Shown piece by piece: positions 2,284 to 39,958 of a stretch of DNA of 64,000 nucleotides. Every line of letters begins with the position of its first letter. Position 1 is the first letter of the stretch. Under the pieces are notes generated by a model. The model saw only the letters and a list, made by a program, of their open reading frames with translations, did not search any database and had not been told where the DNA came from. Both the position numbers and the translations under genes were made by a program. This DNA is from Pseudanabaena frigida. Lineage in GTDB: Bacteria > Cyanobacteriota > Cyanobacteriia > Pseudanabaenales > Pseudanabaenaceae. The DNA is taken from positions 1 through 64,000 of the forward strand of contig QBML01000027.1 of the NCBI GenBank assembly GCA_003242085.1, in the 5' to 3' direction.

Positions 2284-2301
2284 AAATAGCAATGATTGAA
2301 A

Positions 2302-3270: not shown

Positions 3271-3285
3271 TCCAGAAAATCAAAT

Positions 3286-3777
3286 ATGATAGAAACTTCG
3301 AGGCTATTTTTAAGACCATTTTTAGAAGAGGATGAATTTGATTTTATCCCAGCTTTAATGGATCGAGATTTTATGGCTTTTTCGCCTAGTGGAGCGCTAA
3401 ACCTCCAGCAAGCAAAAGTCCGTTTTCAAGAGCTTGTTGATGGTCATCGAAGGAATGGTTTCGGTAAAATCGCAATTATCGTCAAAGAGATCCAGCAAAT
3501 AATTGGATACTGTGGTATTGAACCCTGTGAAATTGATGGTATTCCTGAATTAGAACTTGGATATCGGTTGCTAAAAAGCTTTAGAGGTTTGGGTTATGCA
3601 ACAGAAGCGGCAAAAGCTTTGCTCAGCTTTGAATCTCAACGCGATCGCAATAATATAATCGCTTTTACAGAACCTACAAATCTGCTATCAATTAATGTAC
3701 TTCATAAACTTGGTTTCCAACAATATGGTGTATCTGTTTTTCACGATATGCCAGTGATTCTATTTAAAAAAACTTAA
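3286..3777 (+). CDS. GNAT family N-acetyltransferase (RimJ/RimL-like)
   Basis: A 163-residue single-domain GNAT of the RimJ/RimL type. It begins with the typical ETSRLFLRPF strand, has the acetyl-CoA loop LKSFRGLGYATEAAKALLSF, and ends with the NVLHKLGF segment. Such proteins acetylate N-terminal amines of proteins, small metabolites or antibiotics; nothing here identifies the acceptor. It follows the tandem GNAT gene by 15 bases and precedes the sulfatase leader, so three GNAT domains stand in a row between the FGE and its presumed sulfatase. Confidence 0.88.
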   Translation: MIETSRLFLRPFLEEDEFDFIPALMDRDFMAFSPSGALNLQQAKVRFQELVDGHRRNGFGKIAIIVKEIQQIIGYCGIEPCEIDGIPELELGYRLLKSFRGLGYATEAAKALLSFESQRDRNNIIAFTEPTNLLSINVLHKLGFQQYGVSVFHDMPVILFKKT

Positions 3778-3788
3778 TAAAATTAGAT

Positions 3789-3860
3789 GTCTTCAAGAAG
3801 ACCGACTTCCTAAAAATAGCGTGATAACAATAATTATTGGTCTTTGCTTTAGACAATAAT
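3789..3860 (+). repeat. Two inverted repeats in the sulfatase leader
   Basis: Bases 3789-3802 form a short palindrome (GTCTTC-AA-GAAGAC). A second inverted repeat has arms at 3833-3843 (ATTATTG plus TCT, one bulged base) and 3851-3860 (AGACAATAAT). Its right arm runs into the sulfatase start codon at 3859, so if it folds in the mRNA it would occlude initiation. No Shine-Dalgarno sequence is visible, so control at translation is possible but unproven. Confidence 0.4.
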
Positions 3861-6276
3861 GACAAAAGTTACAAATTCTTCAAAGAGAGATTTTTGGAAA
3901 ATCTCTCTTAAGTCTATTTTGCAATGGGAAACTAAAAAAGCGATCGCCCAAACAATCAGTTTTTTAAGTGCGATCGCCTTAATGTTTTCCAGCCTCCTCC
4001 CTTTACCAGCCTTTGCTGACTATGGCGACACCTTGCCATTACCGCAACCACCCTTTAAGGGCAAAATTGGGAATACTTATAAAGAGTCACAGCCCGACTT
4101 TCCCAAACCCATTCAAGCACCTGACAAAGCCCCTAATGTCTTATTGGTGTTGCTTGATGACGTAGGTTTTGCTCAAACTAGCACCTTCGGTGGATTGATT
4201 GAAACTCCTAACCTAGACCGCTTAGCGGCTAGTGGATTGCGCTATAACCAATTCCATACCACTGCACTTTGCTCTCCCACCAGAGCCGCCTTACTGACAG
4301 GACGCAATCATCACTCGGTTAACACGGGCGTAATCACCGAGTTAGCCACGGGATTCCCTGGCTATACCGCGATTCTCCCCCGTAGTGCGGCAACGATCGC
4401 CGAAGTATTACGCAGCAATGGTTATAATACCGCCGCCTTTGGAAAATGGCACAATACCCCCGCCAACGAAACCAGCGCGGTCGGTCCCTTCGATCGCTGG
4501 CCGACTCATTTGGGATTTGATTACTTCTATGGATTCTTAGGTGGTGAAGCCGATCAGTGGAATACATCGGTATTTGAAAACACTAAATATGTAGAAAAAT
4601 CTAGCGATCGCATCGATTATCACCTCACCGATGACCTCGCCGATCGCGCAATTAACTGGATTCGCACCCAGCAATCGATCGCTCCTGACAAGCCTTTCTT
4701 CACTTACTTTGCCACAGGTGCAACCCATGCGCCCCACCATGCCCCCAAGGAATGGATTGATAAATATAAGGGCAAATTCGATCGAGGCTGGGATAAAGTT
4801 CGCGAAGAAGTTTTTGCGCGTCAGATTGCTAATGGCATCATTCCCCCTGACACCAAACTCACACCTCGCCCTGCGGAAATTCCAGCATGGGATTCTCTCA
4901 GTCCAACGGAGCAGAAAATCTATGCCCGTCAAGCGGAAGTATTTGCAGGATTTCTCAGCCATACCGATGCTCAGGTTGGGCGCGTGATCGATGCGATCGC
5001 GCAGTTGGGTGAATTAGATAATACCTTAATCTTCTTCATTGCTGGTGATAATGGCGCGAGTGCCGAAGGTGGTTTGACTGGTGAATTGAACCAAATCAAA
5101 ACCTTTAATGGCGTTAAGGAAACCACTGAGGAATTTCTAGCGGCTCTCGATGATTTGGGTAGTCCCAAGACTTTCAATCACTACCACGCGGCATGGGCAT
5201 GGGCGGGTGACAGTCCCTTCCAATGGACTAAACAAATCGCCTCTCACTTTGGCGGCACTCGCAATGGACTCGTAGTTGCATGGGGCGATCGCATTAAGGA
5301 TAAAGGTGGCATTCGCAGTCAATTCCACCATGTTATCGATATTGCACCGACAATTATTGAAGCGGCAGGCATTGAAACTCCTGAAGTAGTCAATGGTGCA
5401 AAACAACAACCCATCGAAGGAACGAGTCTTGTTTACTCCTTTGACGAGCCTGCGATTCCTTCGCACCGCAAAACTCAATATTTTGAAATGCTGGGTAATC
5501 GCGCCATTTATGATAACGGCTGGGTTGCGGCGGCGCGTCACGGGCGCTTACCTTGGGAACGGGTTTCTACAACTACCTTTGATGAGGATCGGTGGGAACT
5601 ATACAACGTTGCTAATGACTTTAGTGAATCTCAGGATTTAGCAAAGGACAATCCTCAAAAGTTAGCAGAACTGCAAAGTCTCTTTCTAAAGGAAGCAAAA
5701 AAGCACAAAGTTCTGCCTCTCGACGATCGCCTTTATCAACGTTTTGATGTTGAAGGTCGCCCCAATATCAATGATGGACGCAATAGCTTTACCTACTATA
5801 CAGCCGTGAGTGGTATTCCTGAAACTAGCGCTCCGAATATTAAAAATCGTTCCTTTAGTATCACTGCCGATGTAGTTGCTAAAGCTGACACTGAAGGCGT
5901 GTTAGTCACTCAAGGCGGTCGTTTTGCGGGTTGGAGTTTCTTTTTGAAGGATAGTAAACCTACTTTTGTGTATAACTATCTCAATAGCGATCGCACGACG
6001 ATTCAAGCCTCGGAACCCTTAGCGATCGGCAAGTCGAAGATTCGCTTTGATTTTACTGCCGATGGTGGCGCGATCGGGGCTGGCGGTACGGGCAAGATCT
6101 TTGTCAATGACAAGCAGGTTGCCGAAAGTCGGATTGAGAAAACCGTAGCGGCTCGTTTTGGCATCGATGACACCTTTGATATTGGTCAAGATACGGGTAC
6201 ACCTGTAGTAGATAGCTATCAAGTCCCCTTTAAGTTCACTGGCAATTTAGAGCAGCTTAAGGTCGATTTGTTGTAA
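3859..6276 (+). CDS. Secreted Cys-type arylsulfatase (sulfatase family, long form with C-terminal beta-sandwich)
   Basis: The 805-residue protein has an N-terminal extension and a hydrophobic export segment ending near PAFADYG (about residues 36-55). The sulfatase domain follows, with metal-ligand aspartates at D100-D101 (LLDDVGF), the formylglycine motif Cys138-S-P-T-Arg142 inside [15 protein letters not shown], and a distal metal pair D397-N398 (AGDNG). Cys138 must be converted to formylglycine, which fits the FGE gene at 1267. Residues from about 660 to the end form a beta-rich domain typical of this long arylsulfatase subfamily. It would release sulfate from organic sulfate esters outside the cytoplasm. 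The substrate is unknown. Confidence 0.93.
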
Positions 6277-7744: not shown

Positions 7745-8401
7745 ATGAAATTTACTACTTTAAACGATCGCCTTCATAATTACCTTTTGTCAGTGACTTT
7801 GAGAGAAAATCCCATTCTCAAGGAACTACGGCATGAAACCGCGAACCATGCTAGAGGCAATATGCAAATTGCTCCAGAGCAGGGTCAGTTAATGGCTTTG
7901 TTGATTCAATTGATTGGAGCTAAGAAGACCTTAGAGGTGGGCGTATTTACAGGTTATAGTTCTCTTTCCGTTGCTCTCGCATTACCTGAAGATGGGAGAG
8001 TAATTGCCTGTGATGTTAGCGAAGAATATACCAGCATTGCCAGACGCTATTGGCAAAAAGCCGAAGTTGCTCATAAAATCGATTTGCATATCGCGCCTGC
8101 AATTCAGACCCTTGATCGCTTACTTGCCGAGGGTCAAGCAAACACCTTTGATTTTGCATTCATTGATGCGGATAAAGAGAATTATGACGGTTACTACGAG
8201 CGATCGCTGCAATTGGTGCGGAAAGGCGGCTTAATTGCGATCGATAATGTCTTGTGGAATGGAAGAGTAATCGATCCAGAGTTTCAAGATGCTGATACTT
8301 TAGCAATTCGCTCCCTAAATGAGAAGTTACATCAAGATCGACGGATTTCTCTATCGCTATTGCCTGTATCCGATGGTTTGACTCTTGCTTTAAAGCGTTA
8401 G
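7745..8401 (+). CDS. Class I SAM-dependent O-methyltransferase (caffeoyl-CoA/catechol type)
   Basis: The 218-residue protein matches the metal-dependent O-methyltransferase family. Features are the N-terminal APEQGQLMALLIQL lead, the SAM motif LEVGVFTGYSSL (about residues 63-74), the FDFAFIDADKENYDGYYE metal and SAM segment, and IDNVLWNGRV. These enzymes methylate vicinal hydroxyls of aromatic compounds in the cytoplasm. It lies 24 bases after the BASS transporter on the same strand and may be co-transcribed with it. The substrate is unknown. Confidence 0.93.
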   Translation: MKFTTLNDRLHNYLLSVTLRENPILKELRHETANHARGNMQIAPEQGQLMALLIQLIGAKKTLEVGVFTGYSSLSVALALPEDGRVIACDVSEEYTSIARRYWQKAEVAHKIDLHIAPAIQTLDRLLAEGQANTFDFAFIDADKENYDGYYERSLQLVRKGGLIAIDNVLWNGRVIDPEFQDADTLAIRSLNEKLHQDRRISLSLLPVSDGLTLALKR

Positions 8402-8526
8402 ATTTCAACGAAATAAGCGATCGCCTTTTGCTGTCATGAAGTGCGATCGCCATATACAGTTTCATGGTTTTCTTATTTCCAATTATTTCTGATTCTATTT
8501 TTAACGTAATGTGCAACTAGAAGATC

Positions 8527-8639
8527 TTAGGCAGAATTTTTCTGTATAATACGCCCTATAAGGTGATGAGGCAAAACCTTGACTTTCATCAGCCTATATC
8601 GCCTATAGTCAGTTTAGGCAGAAATTTTCCGTCTAATAC
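8527..8639. repeat. Pair of 26-bp direct repeats bracketing about 60 bp
   Basis: Bases 8527-8552 and 8614-8639 are 26-bp copies differing at three positions. Each starts TTAGGCAGAA and ends TAATAC, and each has a weakly self-complementary centre. The first contains TATAAT at 8545-8550. They lie in the 270-base gap between the methyltransferase and the HNH-like gene. They could be a duplicated promoter or operator, or the ends of a small element. Confidence 0.5.
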
Positions 8640-8670
8640 ATAGTTAGTTAGGTGTTTAATCCGAGTAGAT

Positions 8671-9405
8671 ATGATTTGCCAACTTTGCAGAAATGATAAG
8701 AAACTCATAAAAGCTCACATTATCCCAAAGGGCTTTTTTCGGCAGTTGCGTTCTGAGCGCAGATCCCCAGAAATTCACACGAACAAGGAGGGGGAACATC
8801 CTAAACGAGCTCCCATAGGAATTTATGATACGGGTATCTTATGTGCAGAGTGTGATAATAGACTCGCGCCTTGGGACAATCACGCACAACAGGTCTTGCT
8901 GCAAAATTTCTCTGAAGATCTTGCTATCTATCATAATCGGCAAAAGATAGCCTACAGAATTGCCGATTTTGACTATAAGCTACTGAAATTGTTCTTTATC
9001 TCTTTGCTCTGGCGTGCATCTATTTCAACGCACAAATTTTATCAGCGTGTATCTGCCGGTCCATTCGAGCAGCAGCTCAAGGAAATGATTTTAAGCGAAG
9101 ATCCAGGACCTCCTCTTATGTTCGCAGTGACTCTGGCAAGGTTTAGCGATCCTGTGGTCACGGGCGTTCTAGATCCGCATCGAGATAAGTTCGAGGGCAT
9201 TAACTATTGTCGCTTCTATTTAACTGGGTTTGTCGCTTACATTAAAGTTGATAGTCGTTCAGTTCCCGACTTCATGAAAGATCTCTATCTGCGTCCTGAC
9301 ACACCAATTAAAGTCATATTACGAGACTTCCATCATAGTAAAGATGGAGTAGTCATGAAGGACATACTCCGAAAGTCAGTGCGAACGCACTACACTAATG
9401 CATAG
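8671..9405 (+). CDS. Zinc-ribbon / HNH-like protein of unknown function
   Basis: The 244-residue protein opens with C3-Q-L-C6, then KAHIIPKGFF with His16, and GILCAECDN with Cys58 and Cys61. Two CxxC knuckles around an AHxIP segment form the outline of a treble-clef, HNH-nuclease-like zinc domain. The remaining 180 residues are unrecognised. Such proteins occur in accessory regions and are often annotated only as HNH-like or hypothetical. A nuclease role is possible, but I do not see a convincing full HNH catalytic set. The codon use and the repeats upstream suggest an insertion. Confidence 0.6.
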   Translation: MICQLCRNDKKLIKAHIIPKGFFRQLRSERRSPEIHTNKEGEHPKRAPIGIYDTGILCAECDNRLAPWDNHAQQVLLQNFSEDLAIYHNRQKIAYRIADFDYKLLKLFFISLLWRASISTHKFYQRVSAGPFEQQLKEMILSEDPGPPLMFAVTLARFSDPVVTGVLDPHRDKFEGINYCRFYLTGFVAYIKVDSRSVPDFMKDLYLRPDTPIKVILRDFHHSKDGVVMKDILRKSVRTHYTNA

Positions 9406-9437
9406 TTGGGCTTCCAGTTCTTTTTATCGGAGTAACA

Positions 9438-10193
9438 ATGAACAACATTCAAAGCTTTTCGCTCAATTCGGAACAATATGCCAAACATAGACCTCAATAC
9501 CCCGATGAGCTTTTTTTATATTTGAGCGAAATTTGCGAACATTGCGATCGTGCTTGGGATTGTGCAACTGGAAATGGGCAAGCAGCCATTTCATGTACAA
9601 AATTTTTTTCACATGTTGAAGCAACTGATATTAGTGTCGAGCAAATTCAACACTGCATCACACATCCTAAGATAAACTACAGTGTTTCTCCTGCTGAACA
9701 TACTCCATTTGAAAACCAGTCATTTGATTTGGTTACGGTAGCTTTGGCGATACACTGGTTTGACCAAGAAAAGTTTTTTCAAGAAGTAGAACGAGTACTA
9801 AAACCAAAAGGTATTTTAGCTGTTTGGGGTTATGGTCGGTTAGAAGTTGAACCCGAAATTGATGAAATTATTACTAAGAATTTACTTGAGCCGATCGACC
9901 GATTTTGGGCAAGCGGCAATCACCAACTAAGGAATCGCTATCGTGATTTAGTTCTTCCGTTTGATGAAATTAACATCCCAAAAATTTTTTCAATGAAGGT
10001 AGAATGGAATTTACAGCAATTATTAGGGTATTACCGTACTTGGTCTGGGGTGAAACGCTATTCAGCAGAACTTGGAAACGATCCAGTTGACCAACTGGAG
10101 CTAAAATTGAAAACAATCTGGAATGAGCCTGGTAAAACTAAATTAGTGCAATGGCCTTTGTTTTTAAAAGCCAGCAGAAAGCCTGCAAGTTAA
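9438..10193 (+). CDS. Class I SAM-dependent methyltransferase (type 11)
   Basis: A 251-residue methyltransferase with SAM motif I WDCATGNGQAA (about residues 39-49), acidic strand EATDIS and the FDLVTVALAIHWFD post-motif region. The family acts on small molecules or lipids. Start ATG 9438 is preceded by a GGAG-like sequence. It stands 32 bases after the HNH-like gene and is convergent with the glutathione transferase gene. The function is not otherwise resolvable. Confidence 0.9.
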   Translation: MNNIQSFSLNSEQYAKHRPQYPDELFLYLSEICEHCDRAWDCATGNGQAAISCTKFFSHVEATDISVEQIQHCITHPKINYSVSPAEHTPFENQSFDLVTVALAIHWFDQEKFFQEVERVLKPKGILAVWGYGRLEVEPEIDEIITKNLLEPIDRFWASGNHQLRNRYRDLVLPFDEINIPKIFSMKVEWNLQQLLGYYRTWSGVKRYSAELGNDPVDQLELKLKTIWNEPGKTKLVQWPLFLKASRKPAS

Positions 10194-10984: not shown

Positions 10985-11953
10985 TTAAGCAAGAACTGGT
11001 TCTGCTTTCAATTGCTCAGCTTTTTGCTTCAAAACACTAGGCAAATTGCTGTTAAATACTTCGCCTTCAACGATTTCCGAACGGAAGCCATCGGGACCGA
11101 CGGGAATATCGCCAGTGATCGTGGTGCGATAGAGAACGCGCTCAACTTCGATATGATCGAGATCTTGAGGAGCTAGGTGAGCAGTAGCGCGGTTATCCCA
11201 GAAAGCAATGTCGCCATTGTTCCAACGGAAGCGAGTGGTGTAGGCAGGTTTCTTGATTTGGTTGAAGAACAACTCTAGCAAGAGCTTGCTTTCTTTGCGA
11301 GAGAGTCCAATAATGTGGGAAGTGAATCCAGGATTGACGAATAGAGCCTTTTCGCCAGTTTCAGGATGCACACGCACAACAGGATGGATCGAAACAATTG
11401 GATTCTTCGCAATACGCTCAGCGAGTTTGCTGTTGCTAGGAATATTCAAACCAGCATTGAAGTGATGTTGCGCTTTGAGCTTGTCAGCTAGTTCACGGAT
11501 AGGAGCAGATAGTCCTTCGTAAGCAGCAACCAAATTAGTCCAAGTGGTATCACCACCAATACTAGGAACATTTACAGCACGTAAAATCGAACCTGCGGGA
11601 GGATTAACGGCGGCGGTGACATCGGTGTGCCAACGGCTTTCATAGCTGGAGCGTCGTAATCCATTACGGCGTTCGTAGCGGCTGCGATCGATGGGTAGGA
11701 TTTCAGGATGATCGGCGATCGGTTCGTCTTCGTGGGGATGTGCGAAGGTAACTTCGCCAAAGCGAGAAGTGAAGGCAACCTGACCTGCATGATCGAGATT
11801 TTGATTGCGGAAGAATACAACCTTCCATTTTAAAAGCGCACTACGAATATCTTTGATGGTTGCATCGGATAGAGGCTGAGACAAATCTACACCTTCAATT
11901 TCTGCGCCAGTGAAGGTAGAAGTTGGCTTAACGACAATGGACTGATTGCTCAT
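10985..11953 (-). CDS. TauD/TfdA family Fe(II)/2-oxoglutarate dioxygenase (taurine or alkylsulfate type)
   Basis: The 322-residue protein has the full iron site of the family: His109-x-Asp111 in WHTDVT and distal His259 in ATAHLAP. Arg272 and Arg276, four residues apart, bind 2-oxoglutarate and substrate. These dioxygenases hydroxylate the carbon next to sulfonate or sulfate, releasing sulfite or sulfate; taurine and alkyl sulfates are the known classes. Which one applies here cannot be told. A GGAG sequence precedes ATG 11953. The gene is transcribed away from the 12001-12028 operator and is followed by the glutathione transferase gene. Confidence 0.93.
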   Translation of the reverse strand: MSNQSIVVKPTSTFTGAEIEGVDLSQPLSDATIKDIRSALLKWKVVFFRNQNLDHAGQVAFTSRFGEVTFAHPHEDEPIADHPEILPIDRSRYERRNGLRRSSYESRWHTDVTAAVNPPAGSILRAVNVPSIGGDTTWTNLVAAYEGLSAPIRELADKLKAQHHFNAGLNIPSNSKLAERIAKNPIVSIHPVVRVHPETGEKALFVNPGFTSHIIGLSRKESKLLLELFFNQIKKPAYTTRFRWNNGDIAFWDNRATAHLAPQDLDHIEVERVLYRTTITGDIPVGPDGFRSEIVEGEVFNSNLPSVLKQKAEQLKAEPVLA

Positions 11954-12000
11954 GTAAATTCTCCAGAGTTATGTCTCTAATTTATTCGCGAATTAAAATA

Positions 12001-12028
12001 CTACGGTAAATCTATCGACAAGCCGTAG
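12001..12028. promoter_or_regulatory. 28-bp CTAC...CCGTAG operator-like element, copy 1 (tauD / hydrolase divergent promoter)
   Basis: The element begins CTACGG and ends CCGTAG, a 6-bp inverted repeat at its outer edges, with TATCGA in the centre. It lies 48 bases upstream of the TauD-like start on the minus strand and 163 bases upstream of the hydrolase start on the plus strand. Related 28-bp elements stand at 20331, 32323, 39712, 39861 (left half degenerate) and 39931, all next to sulfur-linked genes. The length and dyad symmetry suit a LysR-type or other dimeric regulator. Confidence 0.72.
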
Positions 12029-12071
12029 TATAGGGTTATCATATTTTTAGAGTCAAGTAATTAGTGATACT

Positions 12072-16534: not shown

Positions 16535-16735
16535 GTAGGATGGGTTAGCGATAGCGTAACCCATCATTGACAACTAACTTATGCGTTACGTTGCACTAAC
16601 GCATCCTACATTTACTCATCAATCAAGAACTAAAGTTCTTGGCTCAAAGCTAAAGTCAGTTAAAACTGACTAATTCTTGAAATTGAACCCGTTTCAACGG
16701 GTTTTAGCTTTCAGCCCGCAATTTATTGCAGGGTA
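16535..16735. repeat. Cluster of nested intergenic hairpins
   Basis: Outer arms GTAGGATG (16535-16542) and CATCCTAC (16602-16609) enclose two smaller hairpins, one around TGGGTTA/TAACCCA and one around ATGCGTTA/TAACGCAT. A second group follows: AAGAACT/AGTTCTT, GTCAGTT/AACTGAC and CCCGTT/AACGGG, enclosed by AAAGCTAAA/TTTAGCTTT. These are dispersed cyanobacterial repeats, lying directly before the flavoprotein gene. Confidence 0.7.
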
Positions 16736-16766
16736 TATCAATCCCCAAAATCAAAAAGGAAAAACA

Positions 16767-18428
16767 ATGTGTATTGAAAGAGAAACAGAACTTCAGTTAA
16801 CGGCTGATGTATTGGTGATTGGTGGTGGTCCCGCCGCCGCATGGTCGGCATGGTCAGCAGCTTTTCATGGCGCAAAGGTGATCATTGCCGACAAAGGTTT
16901 CTTAGGAACCAGTGGAGCCGCCGCCGCTAGTGGTAATGGCGTGATGGCTCCCACACCTGAAAATTGGGAAAAGGTCAAATGGAATCGCTATCACTCCACT
17001 CAAACCTTAGGTAATATTAACTGGATTGAGCGCGTCATTGAGAAAGCTTGGCTGAGTATGCCCTTTGTCGAAGAATGGGGATATAACTTTCCTAAAGAGA
17101 ATGGCGAATCGGTGCGCCAGAGCTACTATGGTCCCGAATATATGCGCGTCCTTCGCAAGAATCTTCTGAAAGTAGGCGTACAGATTCTCGATCAAAGCCC
17201 TGCCTTAGAACTGCTATTAGCGGAAGATGGTTCCGTTGCAGGAGCGAGAGGTGTACAGCGTCAACACAATCGCCATTACACCGTTCGCGCAGGAGCCGTC
17301 GTTCTCGCCAATGGTGGCTGTGCTTACTTGAGTAAAGTACTCGGCTGCAATACCAATACAGGCGATGGCTTATTAATGGCAGTGGAAGCTGGTGGCGAAC
17401 TCTCTAGCATGGAAGCTTCCAGTCATTACGCAATTTCTACCGCCTTCAATGCTACCGTCACCAGAGGCGTTCCCTTTGGTTGGGCAAGCTTTACCGATGA
17501 GGCGGGTAACGATCTAGGCGGTTATATCAACGGTCGCCGCGATCCCTTATTTCTGCCCACAGCGCTCCTGAAAGGTCCCGTCTACGCAAGACTCGATCGC
17601 GCTACCGATGAAGTAAAAGCAGTTATCGAGAAATCCCATTTCATCGCCTATTTACCCTACAAAAAAGCAGACATCGATCCCTATACGGAACGAGTGCCTG
17701 TGACCTTACTATTGGAAGGAACGGTACGCGGTACGGGCGGCATCCGACTCGTAGATGAGACCTGTGCCACCAAAGTCGCGGGACTCTACGCCGCAGGTGA
17801 TGCTGCTTCCCGTGAATTTCTGACAGGATTAGCCTCTGGTGGTGGTGGTCCCAATGCAGCTTGGGCAATTTCCACAGGGCAATGGGCCGGAGCAGGAGCC
17901 GCCGCCTTTGCTCTGAGTTTAGGCGCTCATGCTAACGAAAGAAAAGCTCATCCTGCGGGACAAGCAGGACTGCGATCGCATTCATCTTCTTCCGAAAAAT
18001 TTGATAGCGAGGCGATCGTCAAGGGTGTGCAAGATGAAGTATTTCCCCTCGATAAAAATTTCTTCCGTTCCGAACAGGGACTTTTAGATTCTCTTTCCAA
18101 ATTAGAGAAACTATGGGAACGGTTGCAAGCCAATCCCCAACAGGATACGGTGCGCGATGTGGAATTCTCGCGTCGAGCCGCTTCCCTCACCGCAGTAGCC
18201 AGATGGGGCTATTTCAGTGCTTTACATCGCAAAGAAACTCGTGGCGGACATATTCGCACCGACTATACGGAAACCGATCCCAATCAGCGCTATTACCAAG
18301 CTACGGGCGGTTTAGATCGCCTCTGGGTCAGACGTGACTGGATTACGGAAGCGATCGCATCTCCATCTAATGCAGCCCCATCTCCAACTACACCACTCGT
18401 AAAAATCCCTTCAGGAGCCGCGTCATGA
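16767..18428 (+). CDS. FAD-dependent oxidoreductase, AprA / fumarate-reductase flavoprotein-like
   Basis: A 553-residue flavoprotein. The N-terminal FAD motif is DVLVIGGGPAAAWSAWSAA. A middle region GAVVLANGGCAYLSKVLG and a C-terminal FAD segment GLYAAGDAASREFLTGLASG follow. The closest known architecture is the alpha subunit of adenylylsulfate reductase or fumarate reductase, but the host has no sign of sulfate respiration. ATG 16767 follows AAAAAGGA; an upstream in-frame extension runs through repeat DNA. Its stop overlaps the start of a two-cluster ferredoxin gene by four bases, so flavoprotein and ferredoxin form one complex. With the monooxygenase downstream this suggests electron delivery for organosulfur chemistry. 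Confidence 0.87.
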   Translation: MCIERETELQLTADVLVIGGGPAAAWSAWSAAFHGAKVIIADKGFLGTSGAAAASGNGVMAPTPENWEKVKWNRYHSTQTLGNINWIERVIEKAWLSMPFVEEWGYNFPKENGESVRQSYYGPEYMRVLRKNLLKVGVQILDQSPALELLLAEDGSVAGARGVQRQHNRHYTVRAGAVVLANGGCAYLSKVLGCNTNTGDGLLMAVEAGGELSSMEASSHYAISTAFNATVTRGVPFGWASFTDEAGNDLGGYINGRRDPLFLPTALLKGPVYARLDRATDEVKAVIEKSHFIAYLPYKKADIDPYTERVPVTLLLEGTVRGTGGIRLVDETCATKVAGLYAAGDAASREFLTGLASGGGGPNAAWAISTGQWAGAGAAAFALSLGAHANERKAHPAGQAGLRSHSSSSEKFDSEAIVKGVQDEVFPLDKNFFRSEQGLLDSLSKLEKLWERLQANPQQDTVRDVEFSRRAASLTAVARWGYFSALHRKETRGGHIRTDYTETDPNQRYYQATGGLDRLWVRRDWITEAIASPSNAAPSPTTPLVKIPSGAAS

Positions 18429-18766
18429 TCGAACTTGTCAGCCATAAACTCTGCATCAATTGCAATGTCTGCGTTCAAGTCTGTCCCACCAACGTCTTTG
18501 ACGCAGTTCCCAATCAACCACCTGCGATCGCTCGTCAGCAAGATTGCCAAACCTGTTTTATGTGTGAGGCATATTGTCCTGCGGATGCGCTCTATGTCGC
18601 GCCAGAGTCGCATACCAATGTGGCGGTGAATGAGGATGAGTTAATCGATCGCGGCATCATGGGTGAGTATCGGCGCACTCTTGGCTGGGGCTATGGTCGA
18701 AAGAACAATAGCGAACAGGATATGGCGCATCGGTTACGGTTACTTCCCCGTCCTTATCAGAGCTAA
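18425..18766 (+). CDS. Two-[4Fe-4S] ferredoxin, partner of the AprA-like flavoprotein
   Basis: A 113-residue iron-sulfur protein with two cluster motifs: C10-C13-C16-C20-P (CINCNVCVQVCP) and C41-C44-C47-C51-P (CQTCFMCEAYCP). It lacks membrane segments. The start codon overlaps the flavoprotein stop (ATGA), so translation is coupled. The arrangement matches AprA-AprB-type pairs, in which the small subunit passes electrons to the FAD. In this setting it probably feeds or drains the flavoprotein in the cytoplasm. The redox direction is unknown. Confidence 0.93.
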   Translation: MIELVSHKLCINCNVCVQVCPTNVFDAVPNQPPAIARQQDCQTCFMCEAYCPADALYVAPESHTNVAVNEDELIDRGIMGEYRRTLGWGYGRKNNSEQDMAHRLRLLPRPYQS

Positions 18767-18857
18767 GTGTGATTGACTTCAATGCAGTCTCTCTTAGCGC
18801 TGGTATTTGCAGCCATCATATTCAAGAGTAGGTAAAGAGCTAATAAAGGGAAAGATA

Positions 18858-20186
18858 ATGAGTAGATTGAAACAATTGAAATTGGGCGCATTTATGCGCC
18901 CCATCATCATCCATACAGGTGCATGGCGCTATCCCAATGCTTTGCCTGATGCTAATTTCAACTTTCCCGCGATTAAAAAGCTTATCCAAAAATTAGAGCA
19001 GGGAAAGTTCGATGCATTCTTCATGGCGGATCACTTGGCTTTATTGAATATGCCGATCACAGCGCTGAAACGTAGTCACACTGTTACCTCCTTTGAACCC
19101 TTCACCTTACTCTCAGCCCTTGCCACAGCCACCGAACATATTGGCTTAGTTGCCACAGCTTCGACCACCTATGATGCACCTTTCCATATTGCCCGTCGAT
19201 TTGCTTCCCTTGACCATATTAGCGAGGGTCGTGCAGGATGGAATATTGTCACTACTTCCAATCCCGATGCGGCGCTAAACTTTGGATTAGAAGAAGAACT
19301 AGAACATGATGAACGCTATCGCAGAGCGCGGGAATTCTATGATGTGGTGACGGGGCTATGGGATTCTTTTGCCGATGATGCTTTCATTCGTGATGTGGAA
19401 TCAGGTATTTATTTTGATCCTGATAAACTCCATGTACTGGATCATAAGAGCAAATATCTCTCCGTGAGAGGTCCTTTGAATATTGCTAGACCTGTGCAGG
19501 GATACCCCGTAATTGTTCAGGCTGGCGCATCGGATGCGGGGCGACAGCTTGCTGCGGAAACTGCGGAAGTTGTATTTGCTCCTGCTAGCAATCTGGAAGC
19601 AGGTAAGGCTCTTTTTGCTGACATTAAGGGAAGGGCTAAGGAGAGCGGACGAGATCCTGATTCAATCAAAATTCTGCCTGGGGTTTTGGTGATTGTGGGT
19701 GAAACTACCGAAGAAGCGATCGCTAAACGCGCTCATTTAGATAGTCTTGTCCATTACGATAGTGGCCTTGCCAGCCTAAATAGCGCCCTTGGTTATGATG
19801 TTTCCAGTTTCGATCCCGATGGAGCTTTACCCGAAATTCCCCAGTCTAATGCCAGTCGTAGCGCCCGCGATCGCATAATCTCCCTTGCCCAACGGGAAAA
19901 TCTCACCATTCGGCAGTTAGCGCAACGGGTTGGCAGTTATGGCGGTTTAGCCTTTGTCGGTACTGCTGAAGCGATCGCTGATCAGATGGAACAATGGCTG
20001 TTTGAAGAAGGTTCTGATGGTTTTAATATTATGTTCCCTTTTATACCTGAAGGACTCAATGATTTTGTGGGAAAGGTAGTGCCAGAACTGCAACGACGGG
20101 GAATTTTTCGGAAAGAGTACGAGGGCAAAACTCTACGCGAAAATCTGGGACTTTCCCGACCTCCTAACCAATTTTTTCAGAGCTAG
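18858..20186 (+). CDS. LLM-class flavin-dependent monooxygenase, NtaA/SnaA/DszA family
   Basis: A 442-residue TIM-barrel protein of the bacterial-luciferase superfamily. The segments KLGAFMRPIIIHTGAWRYP, FFMADHLALL, RFASLDHISEGRAGWNIVTT and PVIVQAGASDAGR are the usual NtaA/DszA signatures. Members use reduced FMN supplied by a separate reductase to oxidise aminocarboxylates, sulfones or sulfonates. No FMN reductase gene is adjacent; the flavoprotein-ferredoxin pair just upstream is the nearest electron source. ATG 18858 follows an AAGGGAAAG sequence. A 7-8 bp palindrome (18884-18901) lies inside the early coding region. Confidence 0.93.
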   Translation: MSRLKQLKLGAFMRPIIIHTGAWRYPNALPDANFNFPAIKKLIQKLEQGKFDAFFMADHLALLNMPITALKRSHTVTSFEPFTLLSALATATEHIGLVATASTTYDAPFHIARRFASLDHISEGRAGWNIVTTSNPDAALNFGLEEELEHDERYRRAREFYDVVTGLWDSFADDAFIRDVESGIYFDPDKLHVLDHKSKYLSVRGPLNIARPVQGYPVIVQAGASDAGRQLAAETAEVVFAPASNLEAGKALFADIKGRAKESGRDPDSIKILPGVLVIVGETTEEAIAKRAHLDSLVHYDSGLASLNSALGYDVSSFDPDGALPEIPQSNASRSARDRIISLAQRENLTIRQLAQRVGSYGGLAFVGTAEAIADQMEQWLFEEGSDGFNIMFPFIPEGLNDFVGKVVPELQRRGIFRKEYEGKTLRENLGLSRPPNQFFQS

Positions 20187-20215
20187 TAGAAGAGATTTTT
20201 GTGGATTTTCTTGTT

Positions 20216-20238
20216 CCCCTCTCACTTTTTGGGAGAGG
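20216..20238. terminator. Short C/G hairpin after the monooxygenase gene
   Basis: CCTCTC at 20218-20223 pairs with GAGAGG at 20233-20238 around an eight-to-nine base loop containing TTTTT. It resembles a worn version of the perfect CCCCTCTCC hairpin at 22212-22233 and probably marks the transcript end. Confidence 0.4.
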
Positions 20239-20330
20239 CGCTAGGGTGAGGTCTTAAATCATTGATTTTGGAATCGTGGAATACCTATTTTTTAGGTTAC
20301 TTCATGAGATAGTTTTGGCTATATACAAAT

Positions 20331-20358
20331 CTACTAAAATCCTATCGAGTTACCGTAG
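20331..20358 (+). promoter_or_regulatory. 28-bp CTAC...CCGTAG operator-like element, copy 2 (haloperoxidase-like gene)
   Basis: Begins CTAC, has TATCGA in the centre and ends TACCGTAG, in the same register as copies 1 and 3. It ends 27 bases before the start codon at 20386, with TTAGGAGAT between as the ribosome site. Spacing therefore places it over the promoter or just upstream of the transcript start. Confidence 0.72.
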
Positions 20359-20385
20359 ATTAAATGGCAAATTTAGGAGATATTT

Positions 20386-22188
20386 ATGTCGGTTGACTCT
20401 CAAGATTCGTCGCTACCATCTGATTATGTTCATGAACCAATTAAAAAAGCGCGATCGCCAAAAGAGCAGCTTGGTGCAAGTAGACGCAAATTTCTTGGTC
20501 GCGTTGGTCTATTTACTGCTTCCACAGCCGTCGCAGGCGTGGTTGCGCCATCACTATTCAAAAATAAAGAGAATGCTGCTAAAGCGGAGCCAATTTCTAA
20601 ATTTACAGGTAATGACTTCCCTGCTAGGGCTTATCAAGTGCGGATTAAAGCCGCAGAACGTCTCAAGCAGCCCGTTCCTAACCATCCCACCAATGGTGAT
20701 GAAGAGAAATATCCTAACAAAATCGCTACCGATAGTAGAGGCTTGCCCCATAACAAATTAGGCGAAGTTGATCTCAAGGCTTATCAATCTTTCATCGATG
20801 CTTTGCGATCGGGTGATCCAGATAAATTTGAGCAGATCATTCTTGGTGGTGGTCGCAAATTGGTACAGCCATTGCCCCCCTTGGCAGTCAGTTTGACTGG
20901 GCTGAATCCTGCCCTATTCCCAGTTCCCATTCCTCCTACCCTCGACAGTGCTGAGCAAGCCGCCGAATATGTGGAAATTGCTTGGCAAGGGCTATTGCAG
21001 GATGTTCCCTTTAGCGAATATCGTAATGACACAAATAATCCCCTGATTTTAGCAGCAGTTCAGGATCTCAATCGGTTATCTGGATTTAAAGGTCCCAAGG
21101 AAAATGGTCGAATTACGCCTGAACTTCTATTTAGAGGTTCCGCGTTCTATTCCGATGCCTCTGGAAATGCTATTTACTTCACGCTTCCAAGAGCCGATAC
21201 TGGTCCCTACGTGTCGCAGTTTCTATTGCGTCCTATTCCCGCAGGAACTCAGTCCTATGCTCAACTTCACCGTGTTCCTCTCGCCACTCCAGAGAATAGC
21301 TTCCAAATTAGTTATGATGAGTGGCTACTTGTGCAGAATGGAGGCAGTTCTGGACGTAAGATCAAATTTGACCCCGTGCGCCGCTACTTTATCAATGGAC
21401 GCGATCAAGGCGAAATTGCTCATACTCCTCCACCCGTTTATACTAACGCTGCTCAAATTTTATTGGGTAGCCCAGTTAAGGATAATCCTCTAGCAGGTGG
21501 TGTAGGCGCTCCTTACAACCCAAGCAATCCCTACAATAAATCGAAAACTCAAGTGGGTGGTTCAGGAACCTTTGGACCTGGTTACGCTCAAGGTTTGATT
21601 GCTGCGGTGGGTGCTCATGCAATTCGGGCGGCTTATTGGCAGAAATACTATGTCCATCGCCGTCTCCGAGCAGAATCCTTCGGTGGCTTGGTTCACAATA
21701 ATAAAGTGAATAAGACCGACTATCCCATTCATTCTGATGTATTCAATTCCGAAATTATTGATCGCCACTTTAGCAATAATAAGAGTTATCTGTTGCCTCA
21801 GTTCTTCCCAGAAGGATCGCCATTCCATTCTTCTTATTTAGGGGGTGCGTCGGTATCAGCAGGGGCAAGTGTGACGATCTTGAAAGCTCTATTTGATGGC
21901 AGCTATGTGATTCCCAATCCTGTAATACCCGATCCCAAAGATCCTACGAAATTGATTCCCTATCAAGGCGTACCGCTAACCGTAGAGGGTGAGTTGAATA
22001 AACTTGCCGCCAATATTGGTTTAGGTCGCAATAGTGCAGGTATTCACTGGCGCACTGATGCGGCGGCTTCGTTGGCGTTGGGTGAAGCTGTGGCGATCGC
22101 CATTCTCCGAGATGAAGGTTCAACCTTCTGTGAGAAGTTTGGTGGTTTCACTTTCACTAAGTTTGATGGAACTAAAGTCACGATTTAG
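20386..22188 (+). CDS. Vanadium-dependent haloperoxidase family protein, Tat-exported, acid-base His missing
   Basis: A 600-residue protein with a twin-arginine signal (SRRKFLGRVG, about residues 32-60) and the all-helical fold of algal-type vanadium bromoperoxidases. Conserved vanadate residues are visible: Lys420 and Arg428 in KYYVHRRLR, and Arg548 and His554 in GRNSAGIHWRTD, His554 being the vanadate ligand. His481 also matches. But the Ser-Gly-His triad of the family reads Gly486-Gly487-Ala488 here, within HSSYLGGAS, so the Ser and the acid-base His are gone. Normal halide oxidation is therefore doubtful. It may be a phosphatase-like, rearrangement or sulfur-oxidising relative acting outside the cytoplasm. 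It has its own operator copy at 20331. Confidence 0.88.
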   Translation: MSVDSQDSSLPSDYVHEPIKKARSPKEQLGASRRKFLGRVGLFTASTAVAGVVAPSLFKNKENAAKAEPISKFTGNDFPARAYQVRIKAAERLKQPVPNHPTNGDEEKYPNKIATDSRGLPHNKLGEVDLKAYQSFIDALRSGDPDKFEQIILGGGRKLVQPLPPLAVSLTGLNPALFPVPIPPTLDSAEQAAEYVEIAWQGLLQDVPFSEYRNDTNNPLILAAVQDLNRLSGFKGPKENGRITPELLFRGSAFYSDASGNAIYFTLPRADTGPYVSQFLLRPIPAGTQSYAQLHRVPLATPENSFQISYDEWLLVQNGGSSGRKIKFDPVRRYFINGRDQGEIAHTPPPVYTNAAQILLGSPVKDNPLAGGVGAPYNPSNPYNKSKTQVGGSGTFGPGYAQGLIAAVGAHAIRAAYWQKYYVHRRLRAESFGGLVHNNKVNKTDYPIHSDVFNSEIIDRHFSNNKSYLLPQFFPEGSPFHSSYLGGASVSAGASVTILKALFDGSYVIPNPVIPDPKDPTKLIPYQGVPLTVEGELNKLAANIGLGRNSAGIHWRTDAAASLALGEAVAIAILRDEGSTFCEKFGGFTFTKFDGTKVTI

Positions 22189-22211
22189 AGATTATTTCCC
22201 CTCACCCCTAG

Positions 22212-22233
22212 CCCCTCTCCCGCAGGAGAGGGG
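22212..22233. terminator. Perfect CCCCTCTCC hairpin after the haloperoxidase-like gene
   Basis: A 9-bp perfect stem (22212-22220 with 22225-22233) and a CGCA loop. It is a dispersed cyanobacterial intergenic hairpin and lies 23 bases after the stop codon. No U-tract follows. Confidence 0.6.
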
Positions 22234-22260
22234 AATTACTTTCCCACTCATCATTTAAAT

Positions 22261-32256: not shown

Positions 32257-32322
32257 CTCTTTCGGTTATAGGAGACGCACATTTACTTAACTTAATATAA
32301 CGCAATAAAAGCAATCACAAAT

Positions 32323-32350
32323 CTACGGTAAGTCGATAGGTTTAAAGTAG
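32323..32350 (+). promoter_or_regulatory. 28-bp CTAC...GTAG operator-like element, copy 3 (sulfate-binding gene)
   Basis: On the plus strand it begins CTACGGTA and ends AAAGTAG; on the minus strand it reads CTAC...TACCGTAG and matches copy 2 closely, including CCTATCGA in the middle. A TATAAT at 32359-32364 follows after 8 bases, so the element occupies the -35 region. This is the best-resolved promoter of the set. Confidence 0.75.
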
Positions 32351-32405
32351 ATTTAATGTATAATGCCAAAAAAGTTTTAACTTTCCTTGCAATAATGGTG
32401 TGCTG

Positions 32406-33479
32406 ATGTCCCAAAGCAAAAACTATTTGAATCTTGGCAAACTAAAAATACAGAGAATCTCTTGGACTAATCTGGCAGCTGTGGCGGCTGTTGTTCTTTC
32501 AGTTACTTTGGTTGTAGTCAAAAATGTAGAAAGTAGTAATACGTCAAGTCAATTATTTAACGTATCCTACGACCCTACTAGAGAACTTTACGTTAGTTTA
32601 AATGAACAATTTATTGCCAAGTATGAGAAAGAAACTGGCAAGTATCTGAAGATTAAGCAATCCCATGCGGGTTCTTCCCATCAAAGCCGTGCAGTGATCG
32701 ATGGTAGTGAACCTGCGGACGTGGTGACTTTAGGACTCTATACAGATGTTGATGCACTCCGCAAACAGAATCTCATTCCCGAAGCTTGGTCAAAAAGACT
32801 GCCCAACGATTCCCAACCCTATTCTTCCACGATCGTTTTTGTTGTTCGCAAGGGCAATCCCAAAAATATTCAAGATTGGCAAGATCTGATTCAACCTAAT
32901 GTAGAAATTGTCACTCCCGATCCTAAAAGCTCTGGCAATGGGAAACTAAGCGCTTTATCAGCTTGGGGTTCAGTAATTAAGCGTGGTGGTAGTGAAGCTG
33001 ACGCACTTGCTTTTCTCAAGGCTTTTTACGAACATACAACGACACTTGATGCGGGTGCAAGAGCTTCAGCGATCAACTTTGCTGTCGAAAAAGTTGGTGA
33101 TGTGCATCTAACTTGGGAGAACGAGGCGATTCGAGAAGTTGCCGAATCCAAGGGTGAATTACAAATTGTTTATCCATCTGTCAGTATTCTCGCTCAGCCA
33201 TACGTGGCATGGGTTGATAAGAATACTGCACAGCATAAGAATGCAACTGAAGCGGAAGCTTATTTAAAATTTCTATTTACCGATCAGGCGCAGGAAACGA
33301 TCGCTAAGTTTGGCTATCGTCCGATTAATCAAGAAATTCTGAATAAATACAGTAGTCAGTTTTGTCAAATCGATCTCTTCCCAATCACACTTATTGCCAA
33401 GGATTGGGACGATGCTAAGCAGAAGTTTTTTGGTGATAACGGCATTATCGATCGCGTTTATAAGCCAAAGGCTAAATAG
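32406..33479 (+). CDS. sbpA: Sulfate (thiosulfate) ABC transporter substrate-binding protein
   Basis: A 357-residue periplasmic-binding protein of the Sbp/CysP family, with an N-terminal hydrophobic signal (about 20-45). Family segments are FNVSYDPTRELY, KQSHAGSSHQSRAVIDG and VTPDPKSSGNGKLSALSAWG. It binds sulfate or thiosulfate in the periplasm for the CysTWA permease, whose genes are not nearby. GTG 32400 two codons earlier is also possible. The operator at 32323 lies upstream, which fits induction under sulfur limitation. A SulP permease gene follows after 53 bases. Confidence 0.93.
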   Translation: MSQSKNYLNLGKLKIQRISWTNLAAVAAVVLSVTLVVVKNVESSNTSSQLFNVSYDPTRELYVSLNEQFIAKYEKETGKYLKIKQSHAGSSHQSRAVIDGSEPADVVTLGLYTDVDALRKQNLIPEAWSKRLPNDSQPYSSTIVFVVRKGNPKNIQDWQDLIQPNVEIVTPDPKSSGNGKLSALSAWGSVIKRGGSEADALAFLKAFYEHTTTLDAGARASAINFAVEKVGDVHLTWENEAIREVAESKGELQIVYPSVSILAQPYVAWVDKNTAQHKNATEAEAYLKFLFTDQAQETIAKFGYRPINQEILNKYSSQFCQIDLFPITLIAKDWDDAKQKFFGDNGIIDRVYKPKAK

Positions 33480-33532
33480 AGAATATAAACAATTAAAAAA
33501 AGGCAAAGCATAGCTTGCTTAATGGAACTAAA

Positions 33533-35320
33533 ATGAGTTATTTAAAACATTTAAACTACAACTTGGGTAAAGGTCGTGCGGATGTGATTGCCGCCTTAAC
33601 CGTTGCCGCGATCGCCTTACCACAGGGCATCGCCTATGCGCTCATTGCAGGGGTAGATCCTCGCTTCGGGCTATATTCTGCAATTTTTGTAACGGCGATC
33701 GCTTCAGTTTTCGGCTCATCTTCTCATTTGATTAATGGTCCAACGAGTGCCATTTCTCTTGTGGTATTTAGTACTTTGGGATTTTTTGAACCTGATGCTC
33801 GCCTTGATGCATATGAAGGGATGTTTCTCCTAGGGATCATGGTTGGCAGCATCCAGATTTTGATTGCTGTGTTCAAACTGGGCGACTTGACGCGCTACAT
33901 TTCTGAGTCGGTAATTCTGGGCTTTATGACAGGAGCCTCGGTGCTGTTGGCGATCGGGCAAATAGGAAACGCCCTCGGTATTCGCGAAAAAGGAACTGCC
34001 CACGATCAAGTTTTCTATCGCCTCTGGCTCACCCTGACAGGAGGCAGTCCAAATTATCAGGCTTTGGGAATAACGGTTATCACGATTGTGTTGGCTTTGG
34101 CTTTAAGGCAAGTGGTGCGTAAGTACGGACTACCTCAATTTGATATGTTATTTGTGTTAATCTTCATATCCGTTGGTGCTTATCTCTTAGGCTGGACTGT
34201 TCCTAATGGCGGCAAAACTTTGGTAGCGGTATCGGCTTCAGTGCCTGCAAGCTTGCCTCTACCCCATATTCCTGAAATTAAATTTGCTTGGGTTGGTCAA
34301 CTTTCCCGTGGTGCTTTTGCGATCGCCTTCCTTGGTTTATTAGAAGCATTAGCGATCGCAAAATCCATTGCCAATCAAACTGGACAAGTACTCGACTACA
34401 ACCAGCAATGTCTTGCGGAAGGATTTGCCAATCTAGGCGGAGGTTTCCTGCAAAGTTTACCAGGATCGGGTTCCTTGAGCCGTTCCGCGATCAATTTCCA
34501 AGCAGGTGCAAGGACTCGCTTTTCGGGTGTAATCGCGGCAACAGTTGTAGCAGTAGCAATTCTGACCCTAGCCCCTTTAACAAAATTTATTCCCAAAGCT
34601 GCCTTGGCGGGTTTACTAATCATTACAGCAGCCCGCTTAATTGACCTAAAGCGGTTGCGCTATACCTTTAAAGCTTCACTATTTGATGCTGGTTTAGTGC
34701 TGATCACCGTTTTTACAGCCATCTTTGTGGATATTGAATACTCAATTTTGACTGGAGTAGCTCTTTCCATTCTCCTATTCGTTCCCCGTGCTGCCAAACT
34801 AAAGGGAGCAGAGCTGGTAATTAATAATGAAGGAATCGTGCGTGAGAAAATTTCTATCGATCCGCCTTGCACTTCTGTTCTTCTCTTTGACCTTGAAGGT
34901 GAAATTTTCTTTGGCGCTGCCCCTGACTTAGACCGCTATCTCGAAGAACTCACGAATAGAGCTATCAGTTCTGATATCCGTTTTATAGTTCTGCGCCTCA
35001 AGCGTGTTCGCAATTCAGATATTGTCTGCCTTGAACGCATCGAACATTTTCTTCATCAAGCTCACAAACGCGGCATCACTGTGGTACTCGCAGGTGTCCG
35101 CCCTGAATTAAATCAAGCCTTTGTTCGAGCTGGCTTTAGAGATTGGTTTCCCGAAAATCAGATTTTCATAGAACAAGAGAATGACGATACGGATTCGGCA
35201 ACTCTTAAAGCCGTGCGATTTGCCTATGAACTGCTAGGCGATAACGCTAACAATTGCGAACATTGCGCCGCGATCAAAACTCAAGAAGATCGGAGAGCAT
35301 CGCTTTATTATCTGGTTTGA
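33533..35320 (+). CDS. SulP family anion (sulfate) permease with STAS domain
   Basis: A 595-residue transporter. The membrane domain (about 1-410, roughly ten to fourteen helices) has ALPQGIAYALIAGVDPRFGLYSA and LPGSGSLSRSAINFQAGARTRFSG. The C-terminal STAS domain (about 440-560) shows SVLLFDLEGEIFFG. SulP members carry sulfate or bicarbonate. In the company of a sulfate-binding protein a sulfate role is more likely, but BicA-type bicarbonate transport cannot be excluded. ATG 33533 is chosen; it probably shares the promoter of the gene before it. Confidence 0.92.
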   Translation: MSYLKHLNYNLGKGRADVIAALTVAAIALPQGIAYALIAGVDPRFGLYSAIFVTAIASVFGSSSHLINGPTSAISLVVFSTLGFFEPDARLDAYEGMFLLGIMVGSIQILIAVFKLGDLTRYISESVILGFMTGASVLLAIGQIGNALGIREKGTAHDQVFYRLWLTLTGGSPNYQALGITVITIVLALALRQVVRKYGLPQFDMLFVLIFISVGAYLLGWTVPNGGKTLVAVSASVPASLPLPHIPEIKFAWVGQLSRGAFAIAFLGLLEALAIAKSIANQTGQVLDYNQQCLAEGFANLGGGFLQSLPGSGSLSRSAINFQAGARTRFSGVIAATVVAVAILTLAPLTKFIPKAALAGLLIITAARLIDLKRLRYTFKASLFDAGLVLITVFTAIFVDIEYSILTGVALSILLFVPRAAKLKGAELVINNEGIVREKISIDPPCTSVLLFDLEGEIFFGAAPDLDRYLEELTNRAISSDIRFIVLRLKRVRNSDIVCLERIEHFLHQAHKRGITVVLAGVRPELNQAFVRAGFRDWFPENQIFIEQENDDTDSATLKAVRFAYELLGDNANNCEHCAAIKTQEDRRASLYYLV

Positions 35321-39070: not shown

Positions 39071-39652
39071 TTAGAATGCCTTACCAACTTTAGTTGCTTC
39101 AGGAACTTCAATCAATTTGCCAGTCTTGACATCATAGATATAGCCATAAATAGGAATCTCATGAGGAACGAGAGGATGATTGCGAATCCGCTTCACATCT
39201 ATAGCAACACTTTCCGCCAAGTCTGAAAAGGTTAGCCAATCAATAAATTCGCCTTCATTAGAGCCTTCGCCCTCACCTGAGTCATGCCAACCTTTTTCAT
39301 TAATAGAAGCCGTTTTGAGACTACTCACCAGCAACCCTCGAATTGTCTGATCGGTAAATAACTGCATTCCACAATCGGTGTGGTGAATCACAAACCATTC
39401 CTTTGTACCGAGCAGCTTGTAAGAAATAACTAGCGATCGAATCGCGTCATCACTAGCTCGTCCACCTGCATTCCGAATTACATGGGCATCACCTTCTGCA
39501 AGTCCAGCATATTTTGCTGGATCGAGACGGGCATCCATACAGGTCAAGATGGCAAAGTGGCGGCTTGGCGGTAAAGGTAAATCACCTTTATTGCCAAAAT
39601 TCTCAGCGTAGGATTGGTTTGCTGATAATACCTCTTCCGAAATCTGGCTCAT
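39071..39652 (-). CDS. Beta-carbonic-anhydrase family protein (possible COS or CS2 hydrolase)
   Basis: A 193-residue beta-CA fold protein. The zinc ligands are Cys38 (with Asp40 and Arg42 in CMDARLD), His91 and Cys94 (HHTDCG). Carbonic anhydrase in general hydrates CO2. In this family some short members hydrolyse carbonyl sulfide or carbon disulfide to release sulfide. The gene has an operator of the sulfur set at 39712 and lies directly upstream of metY and metX on the same strand, which use sulfide. I infer that a sulfur substrate is at least as likely as CO2. Confidence 0.87.
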
Positions 39653-39711
39653 AATCTCTATAACCTTAAATTGGTTTCTTATTTAGTTTGGGATTTAACC
39701 ATCTATAAAAA

Positions 39712-39739
39712 CTACGATAACCCGATATAAATACCGTAG
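39712..39739 (-). promoter_or_regulatory. 28-bp CTAC...TACCGTAG operator-like element, copy 4 (carbonic-anhydrase homologue)
   Basis: Begins CTAC and ends TACCGTAG on the plus strand; it stands 59 bases before the minus-strand start at 39652. In the direction of the gene, a TATAGA-like -10 sequence follows about four bases after the element. The central TATCGA of copies 1-3 is not kept here. Confidence 0.65.
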
Positions 39740-39860
39740 ATTAATAGATAGACGTTAGCATTTTAAAAATACAAAAGCAAGCTCTTAATTTCATTAATTG
39801 TGATTTTTTGATGACTTGATTGAGCTGTAAATCCCTTGAAAATATTGATTTAGAATTAAA

Positions 39861-39958
39861 ATACTTAATTATCACGGACAAGCCGTAGATTTATTGATCT
39901 CAAGTAATCATCTATGTAATAGCAACTAAACTACTGTTTTATCAAGTATCTACCGTAG
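39861..39958. promoter_or_regulatory. Two further operator-like elements (39861-39888 and 39931-39958)
   Basis: The second, 39931-39958, is a full match (CTAC start, TACCGTAG end). The first, 39861-39888, keeps only the right half, sharing the 12-base GACAAGCCGTAG with copy 1. Together with copy 4, three elements lie in 250 bases of otherwise gene-free DNA (39653-40211). They may control the carbonic-anhydrase homologue from a distance or be left from a lost divergent gene. I see no open frame in the stretch. Confidence 0.6.

Follow-up and report, generated by a model that had tools for sequence, protein, structure and literature searches.

What does a vanadium haloperoxidase (VHPO) homologue do once the acid-base histidine of its family is gone, and why does its gene carry an operator that also precedes genes for sulfur uptake? 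The question is raised by one gene in the window, as we call the 64,000-nucleotide stretch of Pseudanabaena frigida DNA analysed here (Table 1). Searching its product against the PDB with phmmer revealed matches to the algal enzymes 1qi9 (Ascophyllum, 1.6e-57) and 1qhb (Corallina, 1.1e-56); Pfam gave a sub-threshold PAP2 match over residues 540-575 (18.2 bits against a cut-off of 27.2 bits), and an NCBIfam search gave nothing useful. An AlphaFold2 model (56-sequence alignment as input, pLDDT 82) matched 1qi9 best in Foldseek (E 5.7e-33, TM 0.76/0.82), followed by other algal and Acaryochloris enzymes, with acid phosphatases and NapH3 (8cxl, E 0.01) as remote matches only. The protein thus matches solved VHPOs significantly and over its full length, in both sequence and fold, and is a full-length relative of the algal bromoperoxidases.

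For non-halogenating chemistry on this fold there is precedent in NapH3 and MarH2 of Streptomyces, accepted VHPO homologues (PMC12871659); the kind is therefore already known, and the His-less, sulfur-associated clade described below is a variant of it. A non-redox isomerase or rearrangement catalyst analogous to NapH3 is nevertheless very improbable here: NapH3 lies on a distant actinobacterial branch, both Streptomyces proteins differ in substitution and gene context, no full-length relation to them was detected, and the locus offers no substrate pathway. With a weak fold match as the only connection, membership of the window protein in the NapH3 group was rejected.

Table 1. Features of the window, by position from its first nucleotide
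Feature	Position	Strand	Remark
Formylglycine-generating enzyme and type I sulfatase pair	1267-6276		
TauD-type dioxygenase	10985-11953	-	operator copy 11998-12031 in its upstream region
FAD-binding (fumarate-reductase/AprA-like) protein	16677-18428	+	conserved GGA neighbour
4Fe-4S ferredoxin-like partner of the FAD protein	18425-18766	+	conserved GGA neighbour
NtaA/DmoA-family FMN-dependent monooxygenase	18807-20186	+	immediately upstream of the VHPO gene; TIGR03860 557.8 bits, cut-off 279.7
Interspersed hairpin repeat CCTCACCCCTAGCCCCTCTCCC, inverted copies	20215-20250, 22198-22235		flank the VHPO gene
Palindromic 34-bp putative sulfur operator AATCTACTAAAATCCTATCGAGTTACCGTAGATT	20328-20361	.	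24 bp upstream of the ATG of the VHPO gene
GGA-type VHPO homologue	20386-22188	+	600 aa, ATG start; phmmer, AlphaFold2/Foldseek
Twin-arginine (Tat) type export signal, S32-R33-R34-K-F-L	20479-20556	+	
Y417	21634-21636	+	equivalent of Ascophyllum W338/Corallina R395; halide-selectivity/sulfide-pocket position
K420 and R428	21643-21669	+	vanadate pocket; invariant
H481 (kept) to G486-G487-A488 (in place of Ser-Gly-His)	21826-21849	+	
R548 and axial H554	22027-22047	+	vanadate pocket; invariant
Operator copies in the window	11998-12031, 20328-20361, 32320-32353, 39709-39742, 39928-39961		
Operator copy, sulfate ABC-transporter substrate-binding protein (32400-33479), SulP sulfate permease (33515-35320)	32320-35320	+	
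Beta-carbonic-anhydrase-like protein	39071-39652		two operator copies upstream

Aligning the active site with that of the Corallina enzyme (SPFHPSYGSGHAVVAGACVTILKA, against SPFHSSYLGGASVSAGASVTILKA in the window) revealed three features: firstly, Ser-Gly-His is replaced by Gly486-Gly487-Ala488 (GGA) while His481 is kept, in a stretch that is ungapped against the solved algal enzymes, which excludes an alignment artefact; secondly, the vanadate ligands Lys420, Arg428, Arg548 and His554 are in register, and invariant in 35 GGA proteins and 21 canonical relatives; thirdly, position 417, assigned by alignment with the algal PDB enzymes, is Tyr in 35/35 GGA proteins and Trp in 21/21 canonical ones, one among other clade-specific changes. 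The ligands and the altered motif are thus where the original prediction had placed them, and GGA (SGA in two) stands in all 35 proteins where a functional haloperoxidase has Ser-Gly-His with its acid-base histidine. An acid-base histidine elsewhere in the alignment, the escape that the prediction had allowed for, was not found in register in the window protein; the candidate H550 was rejected, this position being His in 10 of the 35 aligned proteins, Ser, Ala, Asn or Trp in others, and Ser in the window.

From the PAP2 acid phosphatase signature (KX6RP - PSGH - SRX5HX3D) the protein has K420/R428 and R548/H554/D558, with LGGA in place of PSGH. PAP2 and class A acid phosphatases share the anion cage with the GGA protein but need the PSGH histidine that it lacks. 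Because this same histidine is the general acid both in PAP2 acid phosphatases and in dephosphorylation by apo-VHPO, the phosphatase-like substrate that had been suggested for the protein is less likely.

With every residue of the anion cage in place, the pocket should remain able to bind vanadate or another tetrahedral oxyanion. Halide oxidation is disfavoured by the missing acid-base histidine and by the changed residue in the halide pocket. An enzyme that still oxidises iodide or bromide, with H481 or water doing the proton transfer and with sulfur control incidental, could draw on the retained H481 and full set of vanadate ligands, and on Streptomyces enzymes (chloroperoxidases, NapH1) that reportedly work with Ser at the acid-base position; the parallel change at position 417, together with a sulfur operator and gene neighbourhood that run through the clade and that canonical relatives lack, makes it quite unlikely. 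It would nonetheless be too strong to say, as the earlier premise implied, that loss of the histidine must end halide oxidation, because of these serine enzymes and because an H404A chloroperoxidase binds vanadate. The H404A crystal with vanadate bound is PDB 1VNG (listed in PMC8407142).

A search for other GGA variants, as the original prediction had advised, revealed a homologue in 22 of 386 cyanobacterial genomes; the ten nearest to the window gene are all GGA and the more distant ones [AS]GH. Scanning 84,980 genomes gave 80 loci, about 60 of them GGA (two SGA), held mostly by Nostocales, with Pseudanabaena biceps (91%), Phormidium and the proteobacteria Acidovorax, Mesorhizobium, a Polaromonas MAG and a Moraxellaceae MAG; a Microvirga plasmid has one further GGA homologue. 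In a maximum-likelihood tree computed with the motif columns blanked, 35/35 sampled GGA/SGA proteins fell on one side of one branch (support 100/99), with a single GGA change in 100% of bootstrap trees, and outgroup rooting nested this clade within canonical [ASG]GH enzymes, beside a Gloeobacterales MAG. Because the GGA proteins are monophyletic and nested among canonical enzymes, the acid-base histidine was lost once in their lineage and the loss then kept. Codons GCG, GCA, GCT and GCC are all used for A488 with no amino-acid change within the clade; G487, H481, K420, R428, R548, H554 and D558 are likewise invariant despite synonymous codon turnover, and the window gene differs from that of P. 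biceps by dN 0.04 and dS 0.42 (dN/dS about 0.1). The clade is under purifying selection, and dN/dS and codon turnover exclude a decaying gene or pseudogene; broken frames occur singly, in G352 and in Phormidium tanganyikae (L109). A clade-wide, selected loss of the histidine and a W to Y417 change in the halide pocket support the changed chemistry that was first proposed.

This His-less VHPO branch is previously unremarked: in a search restricted to open-licence papers, neither this clade nor a part for any VHPO in sulfonate assimilation was found described. A separate, independent loss of the acid-base histidine, without sulfur neighbours, was seen on the Polymorphobacter plasmid p29334-1 (L155, match 8001-9611), in a VHPO-like protein with Ala-Gly-Leu at the motif and W at 417.

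The element upstream of the window gene is a perfect inverted repeat, AATCTAC-N20-GTAGATT, which the 5.39 Mb genome contains only three times in exact form, the second time before the sulfate-binding-protein and SulP genes; it is kept at the orthologous place in P. biceps (L053). Pooling 100 distinct sites from GGA cyanobacterial loci and the window gave the consensus AAACTACGGTAAATCGATCGATTTACCGTAGTTT. More copies in the same genome precede a TauD/hydrolase pair, two sulfate-binding-protein genes, three SsuA genes and SsuD, and the operator also stands before genes for a PLP-dependent enzyme reading as cysteine synthase, for rhodanese and for beta-carbonic-anhydrase-like proteins. Around cyanobacterial GGA genes it occurs 9.0 times per 100 kb, as compared to about 1 in reversed-sequence controls; these controls and the canonical loci exclude chance. 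An operator common to the window gene and to sulfate and sulfonate uptake genes bears out the sulfur set originally proposed, and the 34-bp palindrome appears to mark out a sulfur-limitation regulon of cyanobacteria, with SsuA, SsuD, TauD, sulfate-binding proteins, the cysteine-synthase-like gene, rhodanese and the carbonic-anhydrase-like protein as apparent members. The last of these, as encoded in the window, could, speculatively, be a COS/CS2 hydrolase instead of a carbonic anhydrase.

Among the neighbours of GGA genes are SsuA, which scores above cut-off with both the SsuA-family and the PRK11553 models, SsuD, likewise above its cut-off, TauD, NtaA/DmoA monooxygenases and the FAD and 4Fe-4S pair. 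At least one ssu, tau, FAD-Fer4 or FMN-monooxygenase neighbour is present at 42/59 GGA loci but 0/16 canonical ones (p 1.4e-7), and in a separate whole-genome set organosulfur neighbours are present at 8/9 against 0/12 (p 4e-5), p-values that overstate the evidence because loci from the same clade are only partly independent of each other; within cyanobacteria the counts are 37/54 and 0/12, which excludes confounding by phylum. None of the listed sulfur genes was found within about 10 kb at 17/59 GGA loci and at the Microvirga plasmid locus. The stronger point is recurrence in distant bacteria with differing gene order: FAD-Fer4-LLM-VHPO in the window, FAD-Fer4-TauD-LLM-VHPO in Rhizonema and Scytonema, VHPO-LLM-TauD-FAD in Acidovorax sp. 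Leaf78, and, in Mesorhizobium, a VHPO gene directly after SsuA-SsuD-permease-ATPase genes. Operon-like arrays thus recur around GGA-VHPO genes across phyla and, with the shared operator, uphold the proposed link to sulfur. In genes, order and operator the window locus matches ssu/tau/dmo loci for sulfonate and organosulfur assimilation, none of which, to our knowledge, has been described with a VHPO-fold member.

Other features of these loci were observed. The FAD-binding (fumarate-reductase/APS-reductase-like) and ferredoxin pair stands beside TauD, LLM and GGA-VHPO genes across phyla (the window, L072, L083, L110, L113, L115 and L116). A 360-residue protein without a Pfam match (cluster c17; L062, 11790-12884) is encoded at nine other GGA loci, and its gene lies directly downstream of the GGA-VHPO in several (L059, L062, L065, L072, L083). 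The small hairpin repeat that flanks the window gene has 11 near matches in the genome and also surrounds the P. biceps copy.

The gene neighbourhood does not point to oxidation alone, because sulfatase genes and those of the formylglycine-generating enzyme occur both in the window and downstream of the GGA-VHPO in three Nostocales loci (L057, L059, L062). The main rival to organosulfur oxygenation is a sulfatase-like or oxyanion-binding role. In the former, the pocket would hold a sulfate ester in place of vanadate, H554 would act as nucleophile to form a sulfo-histidine, and good leaving groups, as in aryl sulfates, would depart without a general acid; activated leaving groups are also the only plausible ones, and we know of no sulfatase with a PAP2/VHPO fold. 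The operator shared with sulfur-uptake genes fits such a hydrolase, as do the formylglycine-type sulfatase and activating enzyme encoded in the same island, and a less charged sulfate ester could suit the loss of a histidine, but Y417, the position that changed, belongs to the halide/substrate pocket and not to the anion cage. The VHPO pocket is homologous to that of phosphatases, apo-VCPO being a phosphatase (PMC4859513), and a sulfate-bound VHPO crystal, 1VNS, exists (PMC8407142). We consider a sulfatase-like hydrolase unlikely.

The GGA proteins also differ from canonical ones in their N-termini. A twin-arginine motif, with the arginine pair (RR) invariant in A1 and placed ahead of a hydrophobic stretch, occurs in 55/62 GGA ORFs as compared to 1/21 canonical, so that GGA proteins are predicted to be exported by the Tat pathway. 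Their immediate relatives in the tree, [AS]GH VHPO-like proteins of Firmicutes, Gloeobacterales, Planctomycetes and Nostocales (43-48% identity), keep the acid-base histidine and W417, mostly lack the Tat motif and have organosulfur neighbours at none of the examined loci. An exported protein that binds sulfate, sulfonate or vanadate, non-catalytically or with different catalysis, would explain why the catalytic His and Ser were lost and the anion cage retained, and why the genes often come after SsuA substrate-binding proteins; since the axial histidine and full ligand set exceed the needs of anion binding, and a large dimer- or dodecamer-type fold is an odd scavenger, we find this improbable.

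That the window protein belongs to sulfur assimilation and has a changed active-site function we hold, for these two points by themselves, with considerable confidence. The loss of a key residue, the export mark and the place among sulfur-scavenging genes suggest that the clade was probably repurposed from halogen to sulfur chemistry. Our preferred reading, to which we give a probability of roughly 40%, is a Tat-exported VHPO-fold enzyme of sulfur limitation that transfers peroxo-vanadate oxygen to reduced organosulfur. The clade gave up the general acid-base histidine and the canonical halide-pocket residue and kept the vanadate/oxyanion pocket; without the histidine, halides would be activated less readily and the pocket would gain room for an organic substrate. 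Synthesised under sulfur limitation, the protein would, outside the cytoplasm, bind vanadate through axial H554, K420, R428, R548 and the G487 backbone; hydrogen peroxide would convert this to peroxo-vanadate, and oxygen would pass directly to a thioether or thiol. SsuABC/TauABC-type transporters could import the oxidised product, and SsuD, TauD or DmoA-type monooxygenases could cleave it.

Direct transfer of peroxide oxygen to sulfides is described for AnVBPO, in a pocket where an active-site His and the residues at the Trp350 position (CpVBPO Arg396), equivalent to Y417, surround the bound sulfide (PMC11433219). Such a transfer would fit sulfur scavenging, because Ssu/Tau systems take up oxidised organosulfur; sulfoxidation is a promiscuous VHPO reaction and hence weak evidence for a natural role. 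Algae lend the link no support, since VHPO transcripts of Gracilaria mostly fall under sulfate deprivation (PMC5402284). More broadly, and still more tentatively, we put forward the possibility that sulfur assimilation has a vanadium enzyme of its own, a VHPO whose histidine was removed under selection, which acts as an exported organosulfur oxygenase or sulfate-ester hydrolase and has been dispersed with ssu/tau islands through cyanobacteria and proteobacteria.

The GGA protein shares with the algal enzymes (Ascophyllum 1qi9, Corallina 1qhb/1up8) and cyanobacterial AmVHPO (5lpc) the whole-chain fold, the K/R/R/H vanadate set and the second active-site histidine (H481) in its SPxHxxY context; it is unlike them in GGA for SGH, Y for W/R in the halide pocket, the Tat signal, and the sulfur operator and neighbours. 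In database annotation GGA proteins would be taken for haloperoxidases, and halogenated products would be predicted from this; GGA with Y417 and Tat gives annotators a signature that separates the clade from true haloperoxidases. The clade is a natural test of the role of the acid-base histidine in vanadium enzymes, and ties a conserved rewiring of the active site to sulfur scavenging in two phyla. If it does represent a dedicated enzyme of sulfur assimilation, vanadium, or the VHPO fold, would have a biological role in sulfur scavenging and, if vanadium is used, this would be a new nutritional role for the metal.
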